Source: Defluviicoccus sp. (GTDB lineage Bacteria > Pseudomonadota > Alphaproteobacteria > Rhodospirillales > Defluviicoccaceae). Taken from it: a stretch of 64,000 nt of DNA. Positions 47,164-62,725 of the stretch are shown piece by piece. Position 1 is the first letter of the stretch; every line of letters starts with the position of its first letter. The stretch lies in contig JARSSM010000022.1 in NCBI GenBank assembly GCA_029624735.1, positions 1-64,000 of the forward strand, read 5' to 3'. The notes under the pieces were generated by a model. It was not told where the DNA came from. It was given only the letters and a program-made list of their open reading frames with translations, and ran no database searches. A program made the position numbers and the translations under genes.

Positions 47164-48455
47164 TGCTGAGCCCCGTAAGTCTCGGCGGCGCGAAACATCG
47201 TCTGCTGCCCGAGCGCATTCCAGCCCTGTTCTTTGGCACCGCCGTCATCGCCCACGTTATCGCCTGGGCAGCGCTGGCGTTCGTTGCTGCCGAACTGCCC
47301 TACTTCGCTGGCGGGCCCGGTCCGGTGCTCGCGGCATTGCACACGCTGACGCTGGGCGTGCTCTTGTGCACGGCGTTCGGGGCATCGCTGCAGATGCTCC
47401 CTGTTGCACTCGGCCAATCGGCGCCGACGGAAGCGGTCTGCCTCGTAATCTTTGCCACTCTGGTGACGGGCGCGGCACTGTTGATCGCCGGCTTTGCCGT
47501 GGCTGGCGTCACTCTGATGGCAGGTGCGGCATTGCCCCTCGTCGTTGCCGTTGCACTCTATGTCCACGAGATCGCGCGGCTGCTGCGCGGCAGTGCGGGT
47601 CCGCTGCACTGGTTCGTCCGGACGGCGATCATCGCGCTCGGCGTCGCGGTGCTGCTGGCAGCGGCGCTGGCCGCCAACTACAGCCTCGGCTTCCTTCCCG
47701 ATCACGGACTCTTCGCTGCGCTGCATGCCACCCTTGCCGGCTTCGGCTTCATGGGCTTGATGGTGCTGGGGTTGAGCCAAATTCTGATCCCAATGTTTGC
47801 GATCGCTGAGCCGCCAGAGGAGCCGCCCTTGTGGCGCGCCTACGCACTCGCCATTGCAGCACTGGCGCTCGCACTCACGGGCCAGGGTGCCGACCTCGCA
47901 CCGCTGACGGCCGCAGGTGCCACGCTCGGCTTCCTGGCGGCGGTCCAGCATGTCCAGACCATGCGGGCTGTCGTTGCGAAGCGGCTCAGGCGACGGATGG
48001 GGCCGGAATTCATCCTCCTCGGTGCGTCGTGGGTGGCACTGCTGCTGGCACTCCTCGCCGCCACCGCCGCCGCGCTCGGGCTGCTGCCCGCCACCAGCGC
48101 TGCGCTCGTGATCATCCTTGTCCTTTATGGCTGGCTGCTCTCGATCCTGACCGGAGTCCTGCAGCGGATCCTTCCCTTTCTCGCCTCCATGCAGGCCGCA
48201 CGGGCACAGGTGCGCCCGCTGGCACCGACGAAATTGGTCGACGAACGCGCGCTGCAGGTTCACCTGTATGGACATCTCGCCGGTCTTGGCGCCGTTGCCG
48301 CCGGTACCGCTGTTGCCGTGCCGGAACTGATCATCGCGGGGGCTGTTGCCGGCACCGTTGGCGCCCTCGGTTTCGCCTGGTTCGCCCTGACGGTGTTGCA
48401 GCGGACCCGCCGCCATCTGAAAACGCATGCATTGGAGAGGTTATCGCCGTCATGA
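47163..48455 (+). CDS. polytopic membrane protein of the NO/denitrification cluster (unknown function)
   Basis: A 430-residue protein with about twelve hydrophobic helices and several membrane-embedded histidines (AALHTLTLGVLL, AALHATLAGFGFMGLMVLG, HLYGHLAGLG). It has the look of a haem-binding or NnrS-related protein, though no standard family was identified. It is joined to the DUF2249 gene in front (one-base overlap) and to hemerythrin 3 behind (ATGA overlap). Similar gene strings occur near nor and nir genes in other denitrifiers, from general knowledge. Confidence 0.75.
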   Translation: MLSPVSLGGAKHRLLPERIPALFFGTAVIAHVIAWAALAFVAAELPYFAGGPGPVLAALHTLTLGVLLCTAFGASLQMLPVALGQSAPTEAVCLVIFATLVTGAALLIAGFAVAGVTLMAGAALPLVVAVALYVHEIARLLRGSAGPLHWFVRTAIIALGVAVLLAAALAANYSLGFLPDHGLFAALHATLAGFGFMGLMVLGLSQILIPMFAIAEPPEEPPLWRAYALAIAALALALTGQGADLAPLTAAGATLGFLAAVQHVQTMRAVVAKRLRRRMGPEFILLGASWVALLLALLAATAAALGLLPATSAALVIILVLYGWLLSILTGVLQRILPFLASMQAARAQVRPLAPTKLVDERALQVHLYGHLAGLGAVAAGTAVAVPELIIAGAVAGTVGALGFAWFALTVLQRTRRHLKTHALERLSPS

Positions 48456-48973
48456 CGACCGAAGACATCGGCGTGCTCTTGCACGCAGAACACCTTGAGA
48501 CGCTCGCCATCGCCAACGCCCTCGAGGTCCGCATCATGGGCGCCGAAAAGAACCGCCCGCTTGGACCGACCGCGTCCGCCGACCGGACGTTCTTGGGTCA
48601 GCTGGTGGCCGCCATCGACGGCGCCATCTGCCGCCACTACCGGTTCGAAGAGGAGACGCTGTTTCCCCTGCTGCAGACAGCGGGCCTGCAGGATGTAACC
48701 GCCATGCTGACCGGCGAGCACGAGACGATCCTGACAATGGCGGATGAGTTGCGCGCGCTGGCAAAGAGTGCTGCCGGAGCGCCCTTGGACGGACGGCAAT
48801 GGACCCGCTTCCGCGAGACGGCGATGGATTTCATTCATGCCGTCATGTTCCACATCCAGAAGGAAGAAATGGGCGTCGTCCGCAGCCTGTCGCTGATGCT
48901 GGGCACTGCAGCCAGTGCCGAGCTGGCCGCGCGCTATCGGGCGCTTCAGCAAGGCTGCGATGCTGCCCCTTGA
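48452..48973 (+). CDS. hemerythrin-domain (HHE) protein 3
   Basis: A 173-residue paralogue of the protein at 42455-42994. Ligand-bearing stretches are LLHAEHLETL, CRHYRFEEETLFPLL, TGEHETIL and VMFHIQKEEMGVV. The ATG overlaps the stop of the membrane-protein gene. An FNR-type box for the next gene starts within its last bases. Confidence 0.83.
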   Translation: MTTEDIGVLLHAEHLETLAIANALEVRIMGAEKNRPLGPTASADRTFLGQLVAAIDGAICRHYRFEEETLFPLLQTAGLQDVTAMLTGEHETILTMADELRALAKSAAGAPLDGRQWTRFRETAMDFIHAVMFHIQKEEMGVVRSLSLMLGTAASAELAARYRALQQGCDAAP

Positions 48974-49077: not shown

Positions 49078-50289
49078 GTGGATTATGAGTCGTTTTTTGC
49101 CCAGCAGTTGAAGCAGCTGCGTTCGGAAGGCCGCTACCGCGTGTTCGCCGATCTGGAACGCGAGGCCGGACAGTTTCCGGTTGCGCGGCTGCATGCGAAG
49201 GGCGGTGAACGGCGGATCGCCGTCTGGTGCTCGAACGACTATCTCGGCATGGGGCAGAACGCCGACGTTCTGGCAGCCATGCACCGGGCACTTGACCGCT
49301 GCGGCGCCGGTGCCGGCGGCACCCGCAACATCTCCGGCACCAATCACTATCACGTGCTGTTGGAACGAGAACTCGCCGACCTGCACCACAAGGAGGCCGC
49401 GCTCTTGTTCCAGTCGGGCTGGATCGCCAACATGACGACGCTCAGCACGATCGGCCGGATGCTGCCAGGCTGTGTCATCTTTTCCGATGCTGAGAATCAC
49501 AACTCGATGATCGAGGGGATCGTCCACTCGCGCGCCGAAAAGCGGATCTTCCGTCACAATGATCCGCATGACCTCGAACGGCAGCTGCGCACGATCGAGC
49601 CCGGCCGGGCGGCGCTGATAGCCTTTGAATCGGTCTATTCGATGGATGGCGACATCGCGCCGATCGCGGAAATATGCGATGTTGCAGAGCGTTACGGTGC
49701 GATGACCTTCCTCGATGAGGTGCACGCGGTCGGCATGTACGGCGCGCGCGGTGGTGGCGTCGCCGAGCGAGACGGCCAGATGCAGCGGCTGACACTGATC
49801 CAGGGCACGCTGGCGAAGGCGTTCGGCGTCGTCGGCGGCTACATCGCCGGCTCTGCCGCGCTGTGTGATTTCGTCCGCTCGTTCGGCACCGGGTTCATTT
49901 TTTCCAGCGCCATGCCGCCCGCCGTCGCCGCCGGCGCGCTCGCCAGTGTCCGCCACTTGAAGAGCCGCCAGGACCTCCGCCAGCAGCATCAGGAGCGGGC
50001 AGAAACCCTGAAGCGCCGGCTGACCGAGGCTGGAATCCCGGTTATGGCGTCGGCGAGCCACATCGTGCCGGTCCTGGTCGGCGATCCAGTCTTGTGCAAG
50101 CAGGCGAGTGATACGCTGCTCTTCGACTACGGCATCTACGTGCAGCCCATCAACTATCCGACGGTGGCGCGCGGCACCGAGCGGTTGCGGCTGACGCCGA
50201 CACCGCTGCACACGGATGCGCTGATGGACGCGTTGGTGATGGCAATGCGCGCGGTCTGGCGGCAGCTTGGTTTGCGCCGTGCGGCGTGA
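49078..50289 (+). CDS. hemA: 5-aminolevulinate synthase
   Basis: A 403-residue PLP enzyme that joins glycine and succinyl-CoA, the first step of the C4 haem pathway of alphaproteobacteria. The N-terminus [19 protein letters not shown] is family-typical and sets the GTG start at 49078 (GGGGA upstream). The glycine-rich [17 protein letters not shown] and the PLP lysine region [16 protein letters not shown] are present. Its place in the denitrification island behind an FNR-type box suggests a second, anaerobic copy that supplies haem and haem d1. Confidence 0.95.
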
Positions 50290-50333
50290 GCGAGGCCGGC
50301 GCGGCCAATCGCGGCAGGGCGGGCAAGAAAGCG

Positions 50334-50759
50334 ATGAGCGAGCCGTTCCTTGAATGGAAGACCGTGTACCGGTTGGGCGTCGAAATGCTCGACTACGAGC
50401 ATCAGGACCTGTTCGCACGCTTGAACGAGCTCAACGAAGAACTGCTCCGCCACGATGAGCGCGAGAAGATCGAAGCAGGGCTCGGCGAGGTCTACGCCCG
50501 CCTGCAGGCGCATTTCGCGCTGGAGGAGCGGTTCATGCGCGAGCACAAGTTTCCCGGTTACGCCGAGCACAAGGCCGAGCACGACCAGCTGCTGGATGAT
50601 TTCATGGAGTTCATGCTGCGGTTTGAGCGTGACGCCACGCTCAGCTACGGGGAGCCGGAACAGGCAACCCTCAAGCACTGGGTGGTCGACCACGTTCTGA
50701 CCAGCGACTTGGAAATGGGCCGATTTGTCGCCAGCCACCCAATCAGCGGCAAACCGTGA
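50334..50759 (+). CDS. bacteriohemerythrin 4
   Basis: A 141-residue single-domain hemerythrin with the canonical di-iron ligand order: MLDYEHQDLF, HFALEERFM, HKAEHDQLL and WVVDHVLTSD. The ATG at 50334 lies 12 residues before the first ligand region; a GTG at 50286 overlapping the hemA stop would add 16 residues. It is probably co-transcribed with hemA. The family binds O2 and can bind NO. Confidence 0.92.
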   Translation: MSEPFLEWKTVYRLGVEMLDYEHQDLFARLNELNEELLRHDEREKIEAGLGEVYARLQAHFALEERFMREHKFPGYAEHKAEHDQLLDDFMEFMLRFERDATLSYGEPEQATLKHWVVDHVLTSDLEMGRFVASHPISGKP

Positions 50760-50933
50760 CCGGTTGAGGCTTTGACCAGTGCAGCGATCCATTCGGGCGG
50801 TTCACGCCCGAGCAAGGTTGTCGCTGCACAGCATATCGAATCGCGTGCACTTTCGGCACAAACAGGACGTACGCTCTGTTCTTGCCAGTGCACTTGCCGC
50901 CGGCGAAGGGCGGGCGGGGAGAAGGTGAGTCTT

Positions 50934-51329
50934 GTGGCGCTGTTCATTTGGAAGAACTCGTTCAGTGTTGGTGTCGACTGTCTCGATACAGACCACATCA
51001 TCATCACCAGCCTGATCAATCACATCGATGATGCCAAGCTCAGCGGCACCGACGAGGCCGCCGTCGGCATGATCCTCAGCGCCTTGATGTCCTATGCGAT
51101 CGGCCATTTTCGTCGCGAGGAGCAGCTTCTCGCAGAAAAAGGCGATTCCAACCTGCCTGCCCACATCGAGCAGCATCACTTGGTCGAACGGCAGCTGGCG
51201 GATCTTTACGCAGACTACCAGAGTTGCCCCGATCCAGAGACCAGCAGAGAGATCATGGAGCTGCTGAACTATTGGATCACTGAGCACATCTTGCGCGTCG
51301 ACATGAGGTACAAGGTCTTGTTCTCATGA
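50934..51329 (+). CDS. bacteriohemerythrin 5 (divergent ligands)
   Basis: A 131-residue hemerythrin-fold protein: WKNSFSVGVDCLDTDHIII, GHFRREEQLL, HIEQHHLVERQL and WITEHILRVDMRY hold the likely iron ligands. In the first motif the common His-x3-Glu is altered, with Ile/Thr after DTDH, so one bridging ligand may be missing. The GTG at 50934 has GGAGAAGG 8 bases before it; a GTG at 50925 is also possible. Confidence 0.82.
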   Translation: MALFIWKNSFSVGVDCLDTDHIIITSLINHIDDAKLSGTDEAAVGMILSALMSYAIGHFRREEQLLAEKGDSNLPAHIEQHHLVERQLADLYADYQSCPDPETSREIMELLNYWITEHILRVDMRYKVLFS

Positions 51330-51333
51330 TACC

Positions 51334-51576
51334 ATGGCCACAAGGTTTGCTAACAAGAAACACGAGATCATGATTCATGAAGATATTCTTTTGATGCAGA
51401 TCGCATCCTTTCTAGTCGTCTCAATCGTTCTCTACTGGATTTCAAACAAGATAATAGACCTCGCCGAGCAAGCACGCGGCGGGCGGTTTGAGCACCGCAC
51501 CATCTATTTCTTTTTCCTTCTTCTTTCTCTTTCGCTCGCCACCTTCTGGGTCATCCGCCGTCTCGGCGGGAGCTAG
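51334..51576 (+). CDS. small two-helix membrane protein in the NO cluster
   Basis: An 80-residue protein with two hydrophobic helices (about residues 21-38 and 57-75) separated by a basic loop EQARGGRFEHR. It starts 4 bases after hemerythrin 5, so it is likely in the same transcript; an ATG at 51370 is a possible alternative start. The gene is less GC-rich than its neighbours. No family was recognised. Confidence 0.55.
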   Translation: MATRFANKKHEIMIHEDILLMQIASFLVVSIVLYWISNKIIDLAEQARGGRFEHRTIYFFFLLLSLSLATFWVIRRLGGS

Positions 51577-51704: not shown

Positions 51705-51890
51705 ATGGCGCATAAGAAAATCATGGGCGACGGTGAGAGCTTGGCGCCCGCTGAGGAGGAGAGGATTCCGGTAATGCAGAATGTACTGGACAACCCGTTT
51801 CTTCTTCTTTTCATAGGCGTCGCCGTGCCGACGGTATTCTACCTTATATGGGGGATTATGGATATTATTTCCATCCCAATCGCAAAGTGA
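51705..51890 (+). CDS. small single-helix subunit before the heme-copper enzyme genes
   Basis: A 61-residue protein with a polar N-terminus and one C-terminal membrane helix (about residues 31-57). GGAAGGAAG precedes the ATG. It lies 15 bases before subunit II. Small one-helix subunits (IIa type) accompany B-type heme-copper oxidases, so it is probably a structural subunit; sequence likeness could not be tested. Confidence 0.65.
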   Translation: MAHKKIMGDGESLAPAEEERIPVMQNVLDNPFLLLFIGVAVPTVFYLIWGIMDIISIPIAK

Positions 51891-51905: not shown

Positions 51906-52445
51906 ATGGCTCTTACGTCTCCGGAAAACCGCCTTTGGTGGAAAGAGCACCTCCATGGGGTGGAAATTGTTTGGATCTCCATCGCCTTCCTTTGGGGATT
52001 GGTGATGTTCTTTACCATGATCTATTGGCACATCGCCGGCGAACAGAACCTCTCAAACGAGGCCTACCGCGTCGCCCCGGAAGAATACGGCAAGAGAGTC
52101 GAAGCGTTCGCCGAGAAGTACAAAGTCCGCGAGGAAGGGACGACGTCGATCCCTGTCGTTCGGCCGCCTGCCGGTGGCGATGCCTACATGTTTGGTCGCT
52201 TGTGGGAATGGTGGCCGATCCTGGAACTGCAGAAGGGTCAGTCGTACCGGCTGCACCTGTCCTCGATGGACTGGCTGCACGGCTGGTCGCTGCAACCAGC
52301 CAATATCAATATTGAGATCCACCCGAACTACGAGATGATTATTACCATAAAGCCGGATCAGACCGGCGTATTCGGCGTGATCTGTAACGAATACTGCGGC
52401 GTCGGCCATTCGCAAATGGTTGGCCGGATCTACGTCGTCGATTGA
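51906..52445 (+). CDS. heme-copper enzyme subunit II with CuA site
   Basis: A 179-residue subunit with one N-terminal membrane helix (about residues 22-44) and a periplasmic cupredoxin domain. The complete CuA ligand set is visible: His125 in DWLHGWSLQ, then Cys160, Cys164, His168 and Met171 in CNEYCGVGHSQM. GGAGG lies just before the ATG at 51906. It passes electrons from a soluble donor to subunit I. Classical cNOR and qNOR have no CuA, so this enzyme is of another type. Confidence 0.93.
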   Translation: MALTSPENRLWWKEHLHGVEIVWISIAFLWGLVMFFTMIYWHIAGEQNLSNEAYRVAPEEYGKRVEAFAEKYKVREEGTTSIPVVRPPAGGDAYMFGRLWEWWPILELQKGQSYRLHLSSMDWLHGWSLQPANINIEIHPNYEMIITIKPDQTGVFGVICNEYCGVGHSQMVGRIYVVD

Positions 52446-52462: not shown

Positions 52463-54160
52463 ATGTCCATGCCTGCGATCTTCCGCACATGTCCGGAGAC
52501 CGGGCTCAAGATCCATGGCTCCGCCGAAACGCTGATCAAGATCAATGCCGTCGTTGCGGTCGTTTTTCTGGCTCTTGGTGGCTTCTTGGGCTTGCTGGTC
52601 GCCATGACACGCTGGCCCGCCGTGCACCTGCTGCCGGCCGAGTGGTTCTACCTGGTGTTGACCGGGCACGGCATCAATGTGCTGATCTTCTGGATCATTT
52701 TTTTTGAAGTTGCCGTTCTTTATTTCGCCTCGGCTGTCCTGCTCAACTGCCGCCTCGCGACCCCCATCATCGCCTGGGCCGCCTTCGTGCTCATGGTCGT
52801 CGGTGCGGTGATGAACAACGTCGCCGTGTTCCAGGGCGAGTCGAGCGTGATGTTCACCTCCTACGTGCCGATGCCGGCGGCGCCTCATTTCTACCTCGGC
52901 CTGATCCTGTTCGCCGTCGGCGCGCTTGTTGCCGTCTTCGTCTTTTTCGGCACTCTGGTCGTTGCCCGTCAGGAGAGAACCTACGAGGGCTCGGTCCCGC
53001 TCGTGACCTTTGGCGCCATCACGGCAGCAATCATCGCCGTGTTCTCGATCACCTCCGGTGCGCTGGCTCTGATTCCGGCGTTCCTGTGGTCGGTCGGGCT
53101 GGTTAGCCACGTTGATTCTCTGATGTATCGGGTGATCTGGTGGGGCCTCGGCCATTCCTCGCAGCAGATCAACGTCGCGGCCCACGTCGCTGTCTGGTAC
53201 GCCATCGCCGCCCTCGTGCTCGGTGCAAAACCGCTCTCTGAGAAGGTGAGCCGGACCGCATTCCTGCTCTACATCGCCTTCCTGCAGATCGCATCAGCGC
53301 ATCACATCCTTGCTGACCCTGGGATCACGTCGGAATGGAAGGTGTTCAACACCAGCTACGCGATGTACCTCGCGGTGCTGGGAAGCATGATCCACGGCAT
53401 GAGCATCCCCGGCGCGATCGAAGCCGCGCAACGCCGCAATGGCTTCACGCACGGCATGTTCGAGTGGCTGCGCAGAGGGCCATGGGGCAATCCGGCCTTC
53501 GCCGCGCTGGTACTCTCGGTGGTGATGTTCGGCATCGCGGGCGGCATTACGGGCGTCGTCCTGGGCGCAGAGCAGCTCAACCTCCTGATGCACAACACGC
53601 TCTACGTGCCTGGGCACTTCCACGCGACGGTCGTTGCCGGCACCACGCTTGCCTTCATGGGCATCACCTATCCGCTGGTGCCGCTGATCTTCCGCCGCGA
53701 GCTGGTGATGAAGAAGGTGGCGCAGTGGCAGCCGTACCTGTTCGGCATCGGCGCCCTCGGCATTTCCTTGTTCATGATGGGCGCCGGCACGCTGGGCGTC
53801 TCCCGCCGGCACTGGGACATCGCGTTCACTGAGGCTCCTGTCCCCTATGACTACCCGCCGACGGCGTACCTGATGCTGGGCTTGAACGGTCTGTTCGCGA
53901 TCATGGCGACGATCGGCGGCATCATGTTTGTGGTCGTCATCGTCTCCTCGATCCTGTTTGGAGCCAAGCGCGGCGAGGCCGAGATCAAGCGTAACCCGGT
54001 TGTATTCCAGGGTGGGGCGGTGGCGGTCTCCGGCTATGGCAGCGAGGGGACGCTGCGGCTGCCGGGAACCGTCGTTCTTGTCAGCTTGTTCTTCGTCTCG
54101 TTCGTTCTGTACTACTTCATTAACTGGAAGTACTTGTCGGAGGTTTGGCCGCTGCATTAG
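52463..54160 (+). CDS. heme-copper enzyme subunit I lacking the active-site tyrosine: candidate CuA-type nitric oxide reductase
   Basis: A 565-residue, about 13-helix subunit of the heme-copper superfamily, closest in feel to the B (ba3) family (HHILADPGI, VPGHFHATV). The six metal-binding histidines are kept: His69 and His387 for low-spin haem, His385 for high-spin haem, His231, His280 and His281 for the active-site metal. The motif that in oxygen reductases is HPEVY or similar reads HSSQQ (231-235), so the cross-linked Tyr is Gln235. Loss of this Tyr is a mark of NO reductases. Its place between NO-related genes behind an FNR-type box supports that. Recently described CuA-containing NO reductases (eNOR/sNOR groups) are the likely relatives; the subgroup is not settled. 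Confidence 0.85.
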   Translation: MSMPAIFRTCPETGLKIHGSAETLIKINAVVAVVFLALGGFLGLLVAMTRWPAVHLLPAEWFYLVLTGHGINVLIFWIIFFEVAVLYFASAVLLNCRLATPIIAWAAFVLMVVGAVMNNVAVFQGESSVMFTSYVPMPAAPHFYLGLILFAVGALVAVFVFFGTLVVARQERTYEGSVPLVTFGAITAAIIAVFSITSGALALIPAFLWSVGLVSHVDSLMYRVIWWGLGHSSQQINVAAHVAVWYAIAALVLGAKPLSEKVSRTAFLLYIAFLQIASAHHILADPGITSEWKVFNTSYAMYLAVLGSMIHGMSIPGAIEAAQRRNGFTHGMFEWLRRGPWGNPAFAALVLSVVMFGIAGGITGVVLGAEQLNLLMHNTLYVPGHFHATVVAGTTLAFMGITYPLVPLIFRRELVMKKVAQWQPYLFGIGALGISLFMMGAGTLGVSRRHWDIAFTEAPVPYDYPPTAYLMLGLNGLFAIMATIGGIMFVVVIVSSILFGAKRGEAEIKRNPVVFQGGAVAVSGYGSEGTLRLPGTVVLVSLFFVSFVLYYFINWKYLSEVWPLH

Positions 54161-54335
54161 CGGCACGCTGCCCCGGGTCGCGGAACTCTTTCTCGTTTCG
54201 CGCACCCGGCCGGCGCCCGCTCTGCTTGGCCGCGCCGCAATTCGGAGATGAGAGCGATGCTGCGATTTCACCCGCGCCGTCTCGATGTGGCGGGTGAACC
54301 GGCGGCAAGCCGGTGATGACGCGGAGGCGGACGAC

Positions 54336-55205
54336 GTGGCTAGGGACGAGGCAAGTGGGTGGCTGCGGACGCTGATCGGGATCGGCCTCGTCGCATCGTT
54401 TGCAGTTGGTCATGCCGCTGCGGCGGCGGCGGCGCTCGATGCGGACACGGCGCTCGAAGCCAGCAAGGCCGCCATCGGGCGCCCGGTCAGCGACTATGCG
54501 TTTGTCAATCCGCTTAACCGCACCGTGCATTTGAGCGACTTCCGCGGCCGGCCGCTGGTGGTAAACATGGTCTATACCGCCTGCTCAGACATCTGTCCGA
54601 CAGTCTCGCAGTCGCTTGCCGATGCCGTTGCGATCGCGCGCGATGCGCTCGGCCGCGACAGCTTTGCCGTTATTACCGTGGGGTTCGACGCCCGTCGAGA
54701 TACGCCGGAGCGGATGCGCGCGTACGCCCGCAGCCATGGCCTCAGCGTCGAGGGCTGGGAGTTCTTGAGCGGCCCTGCCGATAGTGTCGATGGCCTCGCC
54801 AACGCGATCGGCTTCCAATACATCCCCGGCCCGCAAGGGTTCGATCATGTCGCCCAGACGACGGTCATCGATGCCGGGGGACGGGTCTACCGGCAGATCT
54901 ACGGCGCGGCCTTTGAGCCGCCGGTACTGGTCGAGCCGCTCAAGGAACTGCTCTGGGGAACGCCCACCAGTACCAATGCTGCCTCCACTTTATTCGATCG
55001 CATCCGCTTGATCTGCACCGTCTACGATCCCGCAAGCGGGCGCTACCGGTTCAGCTACGCAATCTTCATCAGTATCGGCTTGAGCGGCCTGACCCTGATC
55101 GTGGTCGGCTGGATTATCGTTCGCGCATGGTGGCGGGCGCGGCGGAACGGAACGGCATGGACAAAGCTCAAAAAACTGACACCGCGGACCCCTTCGCATT
55201 CCTGA
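54336..55205 (+). CDS. SCO1/SenC-type copper chaperone with C-terminal membrane helix
   Basis: A 289-residue protein with an N-terminal signal or anchor (about residues 10-30), a thioredoxin-like SCO domain with the copper motif ACSDICPTV and the distal His in GFDHVAQTTV, and a C-terminal membrane helix (about 250-275). SCO proteins deliver copper to CuA, which fits the CuA subunit just upstream. The GTG at 54336 with GGAGG was preferred to an ATG at 54285. Its end overlaps the next gene by about 49 bases. The C-terminal helix is an addition to the usual SCO plan. Confidence 0.88.
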   Translation: MARDEASGWLRTLIGIGLVASFAVGHAAAAAAALDADTALEASKAAIGRPVSDYAFVNPLNRTVHLSDFRGRPLVVNMVYTACSDICPTVSQSLADAVAIARDALGRDSFAVITVGFDARRDTPERMRAYARSHGLSVEGWEFLSGPADSVDGLANAIGFQYIPGPQGFDHVAQTTVIDAGGRVYRQIYGAAFEPPVLVEPLKELLWGTPTSTNAASTLFDRIRLICTVYDPASGRYRFSYAIFISIGLSGLTLIVVGWIIVRAWWRARRNGTAWTKLKKLTPRTPSHS

Positions 55206-56764
55206 AGCGGCCCTTGCGCGCCGCTTACATGCGCTGCGACCGGTTCCTCGATTACACCTTCGGCAGCCGCGACAATCCATTCTACAGCCTGGGCGGACTG
55301 GGCTTCTTCCTTTACTGGATTATTGCCGTCAGCGGCATTTATGTCTTTGCCTTCTTTGATACCGGACTGACCGAAGCCTACGAGTCGGTCGAGGCGATGA
55401 CGCATATCCAGTGGTGGCTGGGCGGCGTCATGCGCAGCCTGCATCGCTATGCGTCGGACGGCCTGATCCTCGTGATCGGGCTGCACATCATGCGCGAGTT
55501 TGCCTTCGATCGCTATCGCGGGACCCGCTGGTACTCGTGGGTGTTGGGTGTTCCGACGGTGGCGCTCGCGTTTGCCGCCGGCATCACCGGCTACTGGCTG
55601 GTATGGGACCGGCTGGCCCAGTACGTCGCCGAAACGACCGCCGAGATCCTCGACCGGCTGCCGATCTTCGGCTCGCCGATCGCGCGCAACTTCCTGGCAC
55701 CCAGCTATGTCGATGACCGCTTCTTCACGCTGATGCTGTTCATCCACATCGCGCTGCCGCTGGTGATGCTGTTCATCATGTGGTTTCACGTCAACCGGGT
55801 GAACCGGCCGCGCATCAACCCGCCGCGAAACCTGGCGATCGCAAGCCTGGTTCTGTTGATTGCGTTGAGCCTGGTCTATCCCGCTTTGAGCCAAGGGCCG
55901 GCCGAGCTGTCGCGCGTCCCCTCCCCCGTCAGCCTCGACTGGTATTACCTCTGGTCGTATCCGCTGGTCGACCTCTGGGGTCCTGGCGGGGTGTGGCTCG
56001 TCTACTTTCTCGGCAGCTTCGCGCTGATGATCATGCCCTGGCTGCCGCCCTTGAAGCGAAGCGCGCCCGCCGTCGTCGACCTCGACAACTGCAACGGATG
56101 CACGCGCTGTGCGGTCGACTGCCCCTATGGTGCCATCCGCATGGCGGTGCGCACCGACGGCAAGCCGTTCGAGCGGGAGGCGGTGGTAAACCCGGCCCAA
56201 TGCGTCAGCTGCGGCATCTGCACGGGCGCCTGTCCGACGGCGACACCGTTCCGGCGCGCCGCCGCCCTGGTTCCAGGCATCGACTTGGGCGGCCTGCCGC
56301 TGGTGATGGTGCGCGAACGAACCCACAAGGCAGCGGCCGGGCTTGCCGGCGCCGCACGGGTGGTGGTTTTCGGTTGTGACCACGGCGGTGCGATCGCCGC
56401 GCTCAACAGTACATCGGTTGGCGGCGTCAGCCTGCCGTGCACCGGGATGCTGCCGCCCTCGATGATCGACTATGTGTTGAGCCGCAGGCTTGCGGAGGGG
56501 GTGGTCATCACCGGCTGCCGCGATGGCGAATGCCGGTTCCGGCTCGGCCCGCAGTGGACCGAAGAGCGAATAGAGGGCAAGCGCGACCCGCAGTTGCGCG
56601 CCCGCGTGCCGCGCGAACGCATTTTGCGGGTCTGGGCAGGGCCGGCGGAGATGGCGCGCTTGGCTCGTGAGATCGCCTCGTTCCAGCAGCGGCTGGCGAC
56701 GGCCGGCAACGCCGCCGCAGCGCCCGCTCCCGCCGAAGCGGGCCAGACGGTGGTGGCCGAATGA
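55157..56764 (+). CDS. fusion: cytochrome b + bis-[4Fe-4S] ferredoxin + MvhD-like domain
   Basis: A 535-residue three-part protein. Residues about 1-295 are a membrane cytochrome b with two His pairs each separated by 13 residues (LHRYASDGLILVIGLH and IHIALPLVMLFIMWFH), ligands for two b haems. About 312-375 is a ferredoxin with CNGCTRCAVDCP and CVSCGICTGACP. About 395-505 resembles the delta subunit of methyl-viologen-reducing hydrogenase: VVFGCDHGG, LPCTGMLPPSMIDY and GCRDGECRFRLG supply the cysteines of a [2Fe-2S] site. It may carry electrons between the cytoplasm or quinone pool and the NO-reductase-like enzyme. It overlaps the next gene by four bases. Confidence 0.88.
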   Translation: MDKAQKTDTADPFAFLKRPLRAAYMRCDRFLDYTFGSRDNPFYSLGGLGFFLYWIIAVSGIYVFAFFDTGLTEAYESVEAMTHIQWWLGGVMRSLHRYASDGLILVIGLHIMREFAFDRYRGTRWYSWVLGVPTVALAFAAGITGYWLVWDRLAQYVAETTAEILDRLPIFGSPIARNFLAPSYVDDRFFTLMLFIHIALPLVMLFIMWFHVNRVNRPRINPPRNLAIASLVLLIALSLVYPALSQGPAELSRVPSPVSLDWYYLWSYPLVDLWGPGGVWLVYFLGSFALMIMPWLPPLKRSAPAVVDLDNCNGCTRCAVDCPYGAIRMAVRTDGKPFEREAVVNPAQCVSCGICTGACPTATPFRRAAALVPGIDLGGLPLVMVRERTHKAAAGLAGAARVVVFGCDHGGAIAALNSTSVGGVSLPCTGMLPPSMIDYVLSRRLAEGVVITGCRDGECRFRLGPQWTEERIEGKRDPQLRARVPRERILRVWAGPAEMARLAREIASFQQRLATAGNAAAAPAPAEAGQTVVAE

Positions 56765-57255
56765 AACCGCTTCGCCACGCAGCCCAAGCCGCATTCGTGC
56801 TCATCACCCTCGGGCTGATCGGCTATTTCTCAGCATCACCGCCCTATGCCCGCGTGCCGCCGGAAAGCGCCCTCATCAAGCTGAGTTTTGCCCATGCGGC
56901 CGCCAAGAAGGGCGGGTGCCGCGAGCTGTCGGCAGAGGAACTCGAACGATTGGCCCCCAACATGCGGCGCAAGACAATCTGCTCCCGCGAACGACTGCCG
57001 GTCGACATCGAGGTCCTACTTGATGGCGCGCCGCTCTACGCCGAGCGTCTGCCGCCGACCGGCCTTTCCGGCGACGGCCCCTCGCGCGTCTATGAACGTT
57101 TCGTCGTGCCGGCAGGATCGCACTCGCTCGTGCTCCGGTTGCGCGACTCCGAGCGCGCGGCAGGTTTCGATTACGAGACGACCCACGCGGTGACGCTGGC
57201 GGCCGGCGAGAGCCTCGCCATCGACTTCTTTCAAGGAGGATTCAGGTTTGAGTGA
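56761..57255 (+). CDS. membrane-anchored protein of the NO-reductase cluster (unknown function)
   Basis: A 164-residue protein with one N-terminal membrane helix (about residues 8-26) and an exported domain. Two cysteines (GGCRELSAEELERLAP and KTICSRERLPVD) could pair. The C-terminal half has a beta-sandwich look (VPAGSHSLVLRLRDS). Its ATG overlaps the stop of the cytochrome b fusion, and its end overlaps hemerythrin 6, so it belongs to the operon. An accessory or assembly role is likely but unproven. Confidence 0.65.
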   Translation: MKPLRHAAQAAFVLITLGLIGYFSASPPYARVPPESALIKLSFAHAAAKKGGCRELSAEELERLAPNMRRKTICSRERLPVDIEVLLDGAPLYAERLPPTGLSGDGPSRVYERFVVPAGSHSLVLRLRDSERAAGFDYETTHAVTLAAGESLAIDFFQGGFRFE

Positions 57256-57655
57256 GGCTCCGGCACGTGTCGTCTGGCGCAACGAGTTCTCCCTCGGGAT
57301 CCCTGCGGTCGACCATGAGCACCGGGAGATGGTGGCGTTGATCAACGAGATCTTCGTTCGCATCGAGGCAGACGACACCGAAACGATCGCAGACGATCTC
57401 GGCGAGATCCACGCCCGTATCAGTGCCCATTTTGCCCTCGAAGAACAAATCATGCGCCGCGAGGGTTACGACCAGTTCGACGACCACAAGGCGGACCACG
57501 AACACCTGCTCGACGACATCCGCGAAATCATGGATGCGTACGCAGACGGCAGCTACGGCGACCGCAAGGATGCCTTCGCCGGCCGCCTGCAGCGCTGGTT
57601 CGTCGATCACTTCAAGACCAAGGACGCCCGCCTGCACAGGCGCTTGAGGACGTGA
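57248..57655 (+). CDS. bacteriohemerythrin 6
   Basis: A 135-residue hemerythrin with the full ligand pattern: VDHEHREMV, HFALEEQIM, HKADHEHLL and WFVDHFKTKD. The start is a TTG at 57248, favoured because GGAGG lies 7-8 bases upstream and it overlaps the previous stop. It closes the operon that begins with the small subunit at 51705 and converges with nirX. Confidence 0.92.
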   Translation: MSEAPARVVWRNEFSLGIPAVDHEHREMVALINEIFVRIEADDTETIADDLGEIHARISAHFALEEQIMRREGYDQFDDHKADHEHLLDDIREIMDAYADGSYGDRKDAFAGRLQRWFVDHFKTKDARLHRRLRT

Positions 57656-57679: not shown

Positions 57680-58687
57680 TCACGCTGCGGGAATACGCAG
57701 ACGCTGTCCCGAGTGCAGGGTGAGAAGAGCAAGCACCCCTGGATATCTCCCGACAATCGCTGGAATGCGCGAAGGCGGCGCAACGTAGAGCGCCGTTGAC
57801 AGGGCATCCGCCAGCGTCGCTCGCGGCGCCACGACCGTGACGGCGGCAAACGCGTCGGCACTGCGGCCGGTATCAGGCACGAACAGGTGGTGGAAGCGCG
57901 CCGCAGGATCGAAGGCGGTCGCGGCGCCGGCCGAGCTCGCAATGGCGCCATCGCGCAGCGGCAACGAAAGCGGTTCGGCCGCGGCGCTTGGCGGGGCTGC
58001 AAGGGCAATCGACCACGGCGGCTCCGCTGGCGCCGGCCCCAGGGCACGGATCTCGCCCATTTCGACGAGCACGTTCGTGTATCCGCGGGCACGCAACAGG
58101 TCCGCGACCCGGTCGGTAATGTAGCCTTGGGCGATGCCGTTAAAGGTCAGGGCCATCCCTGGCGCAAGCGCGATCCGTTCGCTGCGGACGCTCAAGCGCC
58201 GGCAGCCGACCCGGCTGCACGCTTCCGCGATCGCTGCCGGCGGCGGACCGGAGCAAGCGTCCGGATGGGCGGTGAAGTGATCCGCATACGCCTGCCACAG
58301 CGGCTGCACAGTTACATCGAAGGCACCGCCGGTCTGTTCGCCGACGGTGGCGCTCAGACGCAGCAGGCGGAAAAGATCGAGCGATGGGCGGTCAAGAACC
58401 CCGTTCGCGTTCAAGCGCGACAGCGCCGAGTCAGGGCGATAGAGACTGAACTCCCGTTCCAGCCGCTCAACCTCATCGAGGCAGGCACGGACGGCTGCCT
58501 TGCTGGCGTGCTCGGCCGCTCCCACAAGGATCAGCCGCGCCGGCGCGCCCAGCGCCGTTCCCTCCCAGACGTGGAAGGCTGGCGCTGCCGGCGCCACGCG
58601 GCCGGTCATCAGCGCAGCAGCGGTGCCGGCGACGATCGTGAGCGCGCGGCGGCGGCTCAGGATCAGTGGAGGAGAGCAAGTCCGCAT
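57680..58687 (-). CDS. nirX: ApbE-type FAD:protein FMN transferase (NirX/NosX-like)
   Basis: A 335-residue exported flavin transferase. A twin-arginine-like signal (SRRRALTIV) leads to the ApbE fold: FSLYRPDSALSRLN, GGAFDVTVQPLW, LTFNGIAQGYITDRVAD and the metal-binding region LADALSTALYV. ApbE proteins attach FMN to a Thr or Ser of partner proteins. The partner is probably the NirI-like protein directly upstream, whose stop codon abuts this ATG. Paracoccus has the same pair, nirI-nirX, beside nirS. Confidence 0.9.
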   Translation of the reverse strand: MRTCSPPLILSRRRALTIVAGTAAALMTGRVAPAAPAFHVWEGTALGAPARLILVGAAEHASKAAVRACLDEVERLEREFSLYRPDSALSRLNANGVLDRPSLDLFRLLRLSATVGEQTGGAFDVTVQPLWQAYADHFTAHPDACSGPPPAAIAEACSRVGCRRLSVRSERIALAPGMALTFNGIAQGYITDRVADLLRARGYTNVLVEMGEIRALGPAPAEPPWSIALAAPPSAAAEPLSLPLRDGAIASSAGAATAFDPAARFHHLFVPDTGRSADAFAAVTVVAPRATLADALSTALYVAPPSRIPAIVGRYPGVLALLTLHSGQRLRIPAA

Positions 58688-60799
58688 TCAAACTTCCCCC
58701 CTCTTCACGCCGGCGCCGGTCGCAAGCGCCTCGCGCCGCTCGCGCCGTTTGCGCCGTGCGGCAAGCGGCGGGCACAGCGCGTCGTCAGCGTAGACGCGCT
58801 GGCAATTGAGGCAGTGGATGCATTCATTGGGATTGATCTGTCCCTCCGGGTGGATCGCCTGCACCGGACAGCGCTGGAAGCAGATGCCGCACTCGCGGCC
58901 GCATTGCGGGCGCCGCTTCAGCCACTCGAACATGCGCATGCGGGCCGGGATCGCCAGCGCAGCGCCAAGCGGACACAGGTAGCGGCAGAAGAAGCGCTCG
59001 ATGAACAGCCCCGCAAGCAGCAGAGCGATGGCGTAGACAACGAAAGGCCACTCGCGGAGGAACGTCATCGACATGACGGTCTTGAACGGCTCGATCTCGG
59101 CGCCCACAAACGCAAGCCGCGTCGAACCGAGGGACACTGCGAAAAGACCCAAGAAGATGATGTACTTGAGTGGCCACAGCCGCTCGTGCAGCGCAAACGG
59201 CACGACGAGTTGCGGCAGCCGCACCAGGCGCGCGGCTTCTGCCAGCAACTCTTGCAGCGCGCCGAACGGACACAGCCAGCCGCAATAAACCCCGCGGCCC
59301 AAGAACAGAAGTGCTGCAGCGACATAGCCCCAGAGAATGAAGATGACGGGATCCAGCAGGAAGAACTCCCACTGAAAGCCGGTCATCAGCGAGTGGACGA
59401 AGGTGAGCACGTTGACGACAGAAAGCTGGCCACCCGCCCACCAGCCGAGCCAGAGGAGCGTCACCGCGAGGTAGGCGAGCCGCAAACGGCGATAGAAGAC
59501 CGGCCGCCGGACGACGGCTTCCTGAAACACCAACACCACGCTGAGCACAATCAGCATCACCGACACGGCTGCGATCGCGGACCAGCGGCTGCGCCAGGTT
59601 TCCTGCCACAGGGGTGGGGCATCGGCGAACGATGGCTGCTCCGCGACCGGCGCATCCGCCGGCTGCGGAGACAGGACGTAGCGCGCCGGCAGTGCGTAGT
59701 CGATGGAGAGGATCGCCTCTGCACTGGCTCCACCGTCCGGCACCAGAACATCAAGCCGCCACGGCGCGCCCGCATCGAAGCCAGCATCAGCGGGGATCAC
59801 AAACACGCCGATCTCGCGAAACTCAGGGCCTCCGGCGGTGCGCAACGCCTCGACATTGACATAGCCCGCCGTCGTCAGGCCGAAGGTGCGCGCGCCTTGA
59901 ACCAGTTGCAGCCGCTCGAAATGGCCAGAGCGGACAAATGCCGTCCCCTTGACGGAGACAAGGCCAGCAGCGGCAATCATGATCGCCTGATCAGCCGCGC
60001 CGAGCATAGCAGCGAGTCGGTTGTAGGCGAGCTTGCCCAACAGGTTCTCGCCGATGCGGGCTGGCGTCGCCAGTCCCACGCAGAGTTCGAGGAGCAGCTT
60101 GGTGCCTTCGGCCTGGGTGAAGCGGCGGCAGCCAATCGAACCATCCGCCGTTAGTTCGGCCCACGTCGCCGGCACGAAGCCCGCAATGTCAACGCGCGCA
60201 GCCGCCGACGCCCGGCCGAGCACGCCTCGCGATCCCGCCACCGCCGTGACAGCGCGGATAACGGCGTCGCGGATCACCGCGCTGCTGACCGAGGCCCCGG
60301 AAATTACGGCTGGGTAGGCCTGATCCGGCGCGGCACCGGTGGCGAGTGTCCCGCGCAGCGTAACGTTGATGCCGGCAAAGCCGGCGACGTAGCGGCGCAG
60401 GTCATCCTCGGTAATGCCGATGACGAGGATCGGCTCGGTCTGGCGGACCAGCAGCGCACCCGTGATCACGCCCGCACCATCGACGCCGACGAGAACATCG
60501 AGCGGCTTGCCCGAGTAACCGGTCGAGCCGAGGGTATCGAAGGTCGACACCACATAGCCGGTGAGCCGCCCATCGGCACCACGCACCGCGGCAGCCGGTG
60601 GTTGCCCTTCGAACGGCCCGGCCGCAGCGGCGCCGGGGAATACGGCATCCAATTCGGCTGCCGACAACGTGCGCCGGCCGCCTTCCGCAGCGAGCGCGAA
60701 ACCCGTTGGCACGGCCAGCATCAGCACCAGCAAACCGACGGCAAGCGCAACGCACGCACACCGCCGCCGCAACAGGTCCGCCCCGCTCGTGCTGGCCAT
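58688..60799 (-). CDS. nirI: NirI/NosR-family membrane flavoprotein-ferredoxin
   Basis: A 703-residue protein with a signal segment, a periplasmic FMN-binding domain (about residues 60-185), a second periplasmic domain, about six membrane helices (about 400-620) with the polyferredoxin-like GVYCGWLCPFGALQE and FFCRYLCPLGAALA, and a C-terminal ferredoxin (CGRECGICFQRCP, CIHCLNCQRVY). The flavinylation motif reads SGASVSS, with Ser172 where Thr is usual. It is divergent from nirS, as nirI is in Paracoccus, where it is needed for nir expression; NosR is the alternative name for the family. Confidence 0.9.
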   Translation of the reverse strand: MASTSGADLLRRRCACVALAVGLLVLMLAVPTGFALAAEGGRRTLSAAELDAVFPGAAAAGPFEGQPPAAAVRGADGRLTGYVVSTFDTLGSTGYSGKPLDVLVGVDGAGVITGALLVRQTEPILVIGITEDDLRRYVAGFAGINVTLRGTLATGAAPDQAYPAVISGASVSSAVIRDAVIRAVTAVAGSRGVLGRASAAARVDIAGFVPATWAELTADGSIGCRRFTQAEGTKLLLELCVGLATPARIGENLLGKLAYNRLAAMLGAADQAIMIAAAGLVSVKGTAFVRSGHFERLQLVQGARTFGLTTAGYVNVEALRTAGGPEFREIGVFVIPADAGFDAGAPWRLDVLVPDGGASAEAILSIDYALPARYVLSPQPADAPVAEQPSFADAPPLWQETWRSRWSAIAAVSVMLIVLSVVLVFQEAVVRRPVFYRRLRLAYLAVTLLWLGWWAGGQLSVVNVLTFVHSLMTGFQWEFFLLDPVIFILWGYVAAALLFLGRGVYCGWLCPFGALQELLAEAARLVRLPQLVVPFALHERLWPLKYIIFLGLFAVSLGSTRLAFVGAEIEPFKTVMSMTFLREWPFVVYAIALLLAGLFIERFFCRYLCPLGAALAIPARMRMFEWLKRRPQCGRECGICFQRCPVQAIHPEGQINPNECIHCLNCQRVYADDALCPPLAARRKRRERREALATGAGVKRGEV

Positions 60800-60921
60800 T
60801 GCCTCGATCACCCTCGCGCCGCCGGCCATCGCCGAAGACAGCCACGAAGTCTAGTGGCGCCGATGACGCGAGCCTTGACGCTGGTTAAGTGCCGATAAGC
60901 CCTTATGCGCTTTGGGGGAAC

Positions 60922-60935
60922 TTGACCAAAGTTAA
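60922..60935 (+). promoter_or_regulatory. FNR/Nnr-type box and promoter of nirS
   Basis: TTGACCAAAGTTAA (one mismatch to TTGAC-N4-GTCAA) is centred 41-42 bases before a likely start near 60970. A -10 like TAGAGT lies at 60959-60964, so the layout fits a class II FNR-type activated promoter for nirS. Confidence 0.8.
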
Positions 60936-60979
60936 GGCGCGGTCCGAGAGGCCCCCCCTAGAGTGTCTATCCGGCGTGA

Positions 60980-62725
<1,746 letters not shown>

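Follow-up and report, generated by a model that had tools for sequence, protein, structure and literature searches.

A cytochrome b-ferredoxin-MvhD fusion encoded with eNOR-type nitric oxide reductase in Pseudomonadota, a candidate electron-transfer subunit

Excerpts of three papers (PMC8756737, PMC8879329, PMC6431628) describe operons of the haem-copper nitric oxide (NO) reductase eNOR (earlier 'ba3-a1') that include the copper-insertion protein SCO, and one of them mentions an operon with SCO in Magnetospirilli (PMC6431628). The excerpt of PMC8756737 defines eNOR by a Gln in place of the cross-linked Tyr in the active site of subunit I. Here we analyzed a 64,000-nucleotide stretch of Defluviicoccus sp. 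(assembly GCA_029624735.1, contig JARSSM010000022.1, positions 1 to 64,000, hereafter the window), which has in common with the operons of these papers a CuA subunit II, a Gln-type subunit I and SCO. Directly after SCO it carries a gene encoding a cytochrome b fused to a ferredoxin with two [4Fe-4S] clusters and to an MvhD/FlpD domain. Neither this protein nor its NAD(P)-linked twin, introduced below, appears in the excerpts of PMC8756737, PMC8879329 and PMC6431628. A preliminary description of the window knew of no complex with such an architecture, which holds for the literature we searched (Murali et al. PNAS 2024 and Ducluzeau et al. 2014 were not among it), and we regard the novelty of the link between the fusion and eNOR as provisional.

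Other described systems share parts of the arrangement. The anammox Rieske/cytochrome b complexes with an NAD(P) oxidoreductase (Kustd1480-1485 and Kuste4569-4574, PMC12954380) resemble the fusion in their b6-like cytochrome b, their cytosolic low-potential module and their nitrogen-oxide setting. They are multi-subunit assemblies with a Rieske protein and multihaem cytochromes c, whereas the fusion is one chain without Rieske protein, has an Fe-S/MvhD part instead of, or as an alternative to, the NAD(P) module, and is paired with a haem-copper NO reductase. The C-terminus of HdrA2 and methanogen MvhD (5odc, 9sw2) have the same ferredoxin-MvhD order, and the MvhD cysteines are kept in the fusion, which lacks the HdrA flavin domain and has a cytochrome b attached instead. 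The best NCBIfam matches are ExtP (108.6 bits) and ExtQ (33 bits, residues 229-304) of a selenite/tellurite reduction operon, but these scores are far below the curated cut-offs of 290 and 150 bits, and ExtP and ExtQ are separate proteins without ferredoxin-MvhD. Assignment of the fusion to ExtP (NF040969), for which 290 bits is the equivalog cut-off, was rejected on its score.

We propose, with a probability of roughly 0.55, that the fusion serves eNOR as a dedicated membrane subunit for electron transfer and connects a cytosolic low-potential pool with quinone and/or CuA. Its gene is an uninterrupted open reading frame of 535 residues starting at the ATG at 55157 (an alternative in-frame ATG at 55127 would give 545 residues), and it is currently annotated only as a 'cytochrome b N-terminal domain-containing protein'. 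Three Pfam matches exceed the gathering cut-off: Cytochrome_B at residues 40-212 (E = 3.9e-19), Fer4_7 at 311-362 (4.3e-9) and FlpD at 420-515 (3.2e-11). The intact frame and these matches agree with the preliminary description, which read a di-haem cytochrome b, a ferredoxin and an MvhD-like domain in one chain, and no frameshift divides them into separate proteins. In a sample of ~780 Pseudomonadota genomes we found full-length homologues with the same domain order and ~41-60% identity in 24/385 genomes of the class and 34/398 genomes of the phylum. These homologues occur in independent assemblies, on one closed chromosome and on one complete plasmid, which confirms that the fusion is a real single-chain protein and not an assembly accident. 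Across an alignment of 52 homologous sequences the four haem-ligand His are all present in 52/52, and 50-52 sequences keep any given one of the 12 Fe-S Cys. The exceptions are an isolated change of C454 in L068 and the row of L100 copy 1, which is a different protein, the [2Fe-2S]-FAD-NAD fusion. Selenocysteine was considered for nine relatives with one in-frame TGA and rejected, since the TGA is an ordinary terminator at the protein end in 9/9.

By sequence, the operon that contains the fusion gene is of the eNOR type, that is, it encodes a Gln-type haem-copper NO reductase, with predicted NO reductase activity. The active site of subunit I reads H-S-S-Q-Q (in G-L-G-H-S-S-Q-Q), as compared to H-P-E-V-Y in oxidases. 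Subunit II is of the CuA (cupredoxin) type characteristic of eNOR and not of the haem c type, with the complete CuA motif C-N-E-Y-C-G-V-G-H-S-Q-M (C-x3-C-x3-H-x2-M). The NO-reductase-like operon next to SCO that was noticed at the outset thus has its CuA subunit II, its haem-copper subunit I and SCO all in place.

The fusion keeps this company across the sample. Among 44 distinct fusion loci, subunit I lies just 5' in the same operon in 33; three of the others are cut by a contig end before subunit I, two lie on very short contigs, and in six the two genes are truly apart. The separated loci are mostly from one family that includes the Magnetococcales. Consistent separation of the gene from such operons had been named in advance as grounds for dropping the link, yet the genomes with these six loci retain eNOR elsewhere, and the link is not refuted. 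When the same genomes were searched for subunit I, the fusion was present in 23/23 eNOR genomes of the class sample and in 29/30 of the phylum sample. G451 was rejected as an eNOR genome without the fusion because its contig ends directly after SCO. Conversely, the fusion occurs without an eNOR match in one genome of the class sample (G286, whose contig starts at SCO) and in five of the phylum sample, four of which have a completeness of only 69-82%. Between the fusion and eNOR subunit I the distance matrices are correlated with r = 0.89 (39 genomes), as compared to 0.82 for subunits I and II, 0.73 for subunit I and SCO, and 0.23 for the fusion and nirS, a ranking that is suggestive only, because the matrices of shorter proteins are noisier and the genomes are related. 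We conclude that the fusion is bound in evolution to eNOR in the sampled Pseudomonadota. A tandem pair of cytochrome b-ferredoxin-MvhD genes was observed within one cluster (L006:10013-13812) and also in L098 and L099.

For the first part of the fusion, the nearest solved structure by sequence is cytochrome b6. The pairs H96/H110 and H197/H211 (codons at 55442, 55484, 55745 and 55787) show the fourteen-residue spacing seen in bc1 and place two bis-His b haems in helices B and D, as in Rieske/cytochrome b complexes. Helices E and F (spans 226-244 and 278-296) flank the loop D261-W262-Y263-Y264 (55937-55948), in which D261 takes the place of the PEWY Glu when aligned with the organism's own bc1 cytochrome b. 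The alignment of homologues shows both D261 and W262 in 52/52 sequences, so that the PEWY-type ef loop of the quinol oxidation (Qo) site is present as a variant, D-W-[FY]-Y. The positive-inside charge pattern predicts that the N-terminus, the b-c loop, the d-e loop and the Fe-S end face the cytoplasm and the D-W-Y-Y loop faces the periplasm. The equivalent of the haem c(i) Cys35 of b6 is absent: position 44 is S here and H, N, Q or Y in most relatives, and Cys is not one of the five commonest residues there. In place of the last helices of a normal bc complex, the fusion has a predicted relay of Fe-S clusters on the cytoplasmic side.

The fusion is not in a standard bc or b6f complex, since the operon has neither a Rieske protein nor a c-type haem motif. 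A pattern search found no Rieske protein in 60 loci (the positive control was detected), the only one in the organism's own genome belongs to bc1, and no CxxCH motif occurs in any frame of the operon strand between 51301 and 57300.

These features bear on a reading in which electrons run in the opposite direction: quinol would be bifurcated at the Qo-like site, with one branch leading to CuA and NO and the other through haems bL and bH and the Fe-S relay to ferredoxin or NAD(P)+. The same logic has been proposed for the anammox Rieske/cytochrome b complexes with NAD(P) oxidoreductases (PMC12954380). The invariant D-W-[FY] ef loop at the PEWY position, together with two transmembrane haems, fits quinol oxidation on the outside better than it fits a simple NAD(P)H:quinone reductase. 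The NO/N2O couple lies at ~ +1.18 V and the energetics would be ample. With no Rieske protein, however, CuA itself would have to be the high-potential one-electron acceptor at the Qo site, a role for which we know of no precedent, and bifurcation is not visible in a sequence. We keep this reading as the first rival, though a rather unlikely one. It is doubtful that the protein, as a single-chain cytochrome b without Rieske protein, bifurcates quinol electrons between an NO reductase and a cytosolic carrier by way of an exchangeable module.

The cytoplasmic part contains the eight Cys of the ferredoxin (312, 315, 318, 322, 349, 352, 355 and 359), and four further Cys are conserved in the MvhD domain (407, 428, 454 and 459). 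The preliminary description counted two [4Fe-4S] clusters; the ferredoxin pair accounts for these, and the MvhD Cys are predicted to bind a third cluster, by analogy a [2Fe-2S], which would bring the total to three. PF02662 matches the fusion with 43.7 bits (cut-off 22.3), and the nearest solved structures by sequence for this last part are methanogen MvhD. Residues 304-518 match the C-terminal end of HdrA2 (NCBIfam) in the order ferredoxin then MvhD. The match covers only positions 571-773 of the 777 of the HdrA2 profile (69.5 bits, cut-off 1100) and does not include the FAD-binding HdrA core.

A natural exchange of this cytosolic part was found in genome G723, where the gene after SCO encodes the same kind of cytochrome b joined to plant-type [2Fe-2S], FAD- and NAD-binding domains (Fer2 + FAD_binding_6 + NAD_binding_1). 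This second fusion is present at full length in 19/200 genomes of the order of G723. In 14 of the 19 loci it is part of the eNOR operon or next to it (subunits, SCO or the HCO2/fusion/companion set), usually alongside the ferredoxin-MvhD version, and the other five loci are on short contigs or near nirS. By profile search, the NAD(P)-type version is the only one in two of the 19 genomes, G770 (closed) and G839 (87% complete), in the gene order subunit II, subunit I, haem o synthase, SCO, cytochrome b-[2Fe-2S]-FAD-NAD, companion. The second fusion has the same haem ligands and D-W loop as the first, and it has a single origin (support 100). Its nesting within the ferredoxin-MvhD type in a FastTree phylogeny is not claimed, because an approximately unbiased (AU) test, with a very long outgroup, allowed a sister relation (p 0.75); we claim the single origin only. 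New here is that, within one order, a cytochrome b of the same kind occupies the same operon slot with a [2Fe-2S]-FAD-NAD(P) reductase in place of ferredoxin-MvhD. This swap argues for a cytosolic end that is an interchangeable connector with soluble low-potential carriers, and it lends independent support to the early suggestion of a role for electrons linked to ferredoxin or NAD(P)H. In 2006 a fusion of cytochrome b/b6 with an NAD(P)/flavin domain was reportedly noted in Accumulibacter; presumably it belongs to the cytochrome b-[2Fe-2S]-FAD-NAD(P) type found here, and to our knowledge that report makes no link to eNOR.

The swap also speaks to a simpler scheme, in which the cytochrome b is a plain quinol dehydrogenase that passes electrons from quinol on to eNOR, with the cytosolic module acting only as a sensor of redox state or NO. 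The Qo-like loop and the co-occurrence with eNOR would suit this scheme, as would the hemerythrin-like and NO-related genes nearby. A sensor would not explain why all 12 cluster ligands are conserved, however, and the replacement of the module in one lineage by a full [2Fe-2S]-FAD-NAD(P) chain points to an electron-transfer unit, so that we consider the scheme very improbable.

As a dedicated subunit of eNOR, the fusion would span the membrane with its bc/b6-like cytochrome b, which has six helices and two haems. Its Qo-like, quinol-type loop would lie on the periplasmic side, the same side as the CuA of eNOR, and a relay of three Fe-S clusters with MvhD at its end would lie on the cytoplasmic side. 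In HdrA-type enzymes MvhD is the docking site and electron port for soluble dehydrogenases. The relay would exchange electrons with soluble low-potential carriers, either reduced ferredoxin or NAD(P)H via a soluble flavoprotein, and haems bH and bL would connect it with quinone and/or CuA. NO reduction would thereby be coupled to the cytosolic pool without a Rieske protein or cytochrome c. We infer the cluster types, complex formation and quinone use. The direction from a cytosolic donor through the cytochrome b to the periplasmic side is slightly favored, since both alternative modules, ferredoxin-MvhD and [2Fe-2S]-FAD-NAD(P), are electron-input modules in known relatives.

Several observations weigh against this assignment. 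The organism's own genome lacks an HdrA2-type HdrA and a second FlpD protein, which rejects HdrA and a second MvhD as partners and places the fusion outside the known kind of heterodisulphide reductase system. The operon has no conserved gene for a soluble partner and contains no HdrA and no hydrogenase or formate dehydrogenase partner (the latter two were not searched for elsewhere in the genome). The genome also encodes qNOR and an ordinary bc1 complex. The AlphaFold 2 (AF2) model of the fusion, made with six sequences, has a predicted local distance difference test (pLDDT) score of 54, and it is too poor for us to claim cofactor distances or to base a fold search on it. Outside Pseudomonadota eNOR is represented here by plasmid records of Thermus, Thermomicrobium and Haloarcula, and in these the fusion is not near eNOR. 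It follows from these plasmids that eNOR catalysis does not need the fusion, which is an addition seen here in Pseudomonadota and not a requirement of eNOR. Finally, the co-occurrence and the correlated divergence would fit an assembly factor as well.

Such a factor would be a reductase for the assembly or maintenance of eNOR that passes cytosolic electrons to periplasmic Cu(II), SCO thiols or haem during the assembly of CuA and CuB, in a role like that of CcoG or a ferric or cupric reductase. With SCO as the usual neighbor of the fusion gene, which it overlaps by 49 bp in the window, this is the main non-catalytic rival. A cytosolic NAD(P)H/ferredoxin module joined to two membrane b haems resembles the transmembrane metalloreductases, and the eNOR of other phyla, without the fusion nearby, would also fit. 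The correlation with subunit I is higher for the fusion (0.89) than for SCO (0.73), though longer proteins are less noisy, and in one family the fusion and its companion lie away from SCO and eNOR while co-occurrence in the genome is kept. A quinol-type ef loop would moreover be superfluous in an assembly reductase, and other CuA enzymes manage without such a protein. We judge this role rather unlikely.

NO reductases are thought to draw their electrons from quinol or cytochrome c. In the sampled Pseudomonadota, eNOR is almost invariably accompanied by a cytochrome b that is predicted to reach the cytosolic ferredoxin/NAD(P)H pool and in which two unrelated redox modules have replaced one another at the cytosolic end. 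If this connection is real, part of the N2O from these bacteria would be powered by, or would feed, low-potential metabolism, a route left out of current denitrification models, and eNOR would be a test case for the rewiring of cytochrome b complexes. If bifurcation is true, NO reduction would directly pay for low-potential reducing power. The poorly annotated fusion gene gains in eNOR a clear, testable partner. The features of the locus are collected in Table 1.

Table 1. Genes and protein domains of the eNOR operon in the window.
Feature	Coordinates	Strand	Basis or remark
Small membrane protein, 61 aa, candidate small subunit	51705..51890	+	Sequence
eNOR subunit II, CuA	51906..52445	+	PF00116, sequence
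eNOR subunit I, haem-copper	52463..54160	+	PF00115, active-site motif
SCO copper-insertion protein	54285..55205	+	PF02630; 49-bp overlap with fusion gene
Cytochrome b - 2x[4Fe-4S] ferredoxin - MvhD/FlpD fusion	55157..56764	+	535 aa, gene under study
Cytochrome b N-terminal four-helix domain, residues 40-212	55274..55792	+	PF00033; aligned with cytochrome b6 6rqf
Helices E and F, residues 226-296	55832..56044	+	Hydropathy, positive-inside pattern; six-helix cytochrome b in total
Bacterial-type ferredoxin, residues 305-362, predicted cytoplasmic	56069..56242	+	Pfam Fer4_7, Cys conservation, topology
MvhD/FlpD domain, residues 406-515	56372..56701	+	PF02662, NF040770 (304-518), PDB 9sw2_D and 5odc_D
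Companion protein, predicted periplasmic	56761..57255	+	4-bp overlap with fusion gene
Hemerythrin-like protein	57248..57655	+	Last gene of operon in most loci

The companion gene lies next to the fusion gene at nearly every locus, also where the fusion is unlinked to eNOR. Its product has one helix and a beta-sandwich with two conserved Cys (AF2 pLDDT 88.5), and it was not assigned a redox role, as structure searches returned generic beta-sandwich matches only. The counterpart of the hemerythrin-like gene is annotated as hemerythrin family in Defluviimonas. By eye, four hemerythrin-like proteins lie within 10 kb around the eNOR operon (48434-48973, 50286-50759, 50931-51329 and 57248-57655). 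The 61-residue membrane protein is found 5' of subunit II in several eNOR operons, with a clear match in L100 and similar stretches in L074 and L093 for which the query was partly out of frame. An 80-residue membrane protein (51334-51576 in the window) recurs at many loci in the vicinity of eNOR or fusion genes, encoded on either strand, and also adjoins some of the unlinked Magnetococcales copies of the fusion. Beyond the operon lie ApbE, NosR, nirS (cytochrome cd1 nitrite reductase) and a nirE-like methyltransferase. ApbE and NosR are on the minus strand beside nirS (57680-62725), and NosR scores 656.7 bits, below the NCBIfam cut-off of 1000.

Among the plasmid-borne relatives of subunit I the neighbors are different: haem o synthase in Thermomicrobium (L102), Rrf2/DUF542 in Thermus (L103) and a halocyanin-domain protein in Haloarcula (L104). 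The organism's own genome also encodes aa3 and cbb3 oxidases. A divergent haem-copper-like protein of 450-460 residues, with the motif G-G-G-H-[VI]-L-Q-F and no HPEVY, is encoded 3' of the cytochrome b fusions in many eNOR operons (for example L100:7124-8512, L005:5108-6472 and L098:466-1839), and a relative of it is found near the aa3 oxidase in the organism's own genome (L154, G000:C11:230393-231556). It is possibly a further NO-reductase-like family.

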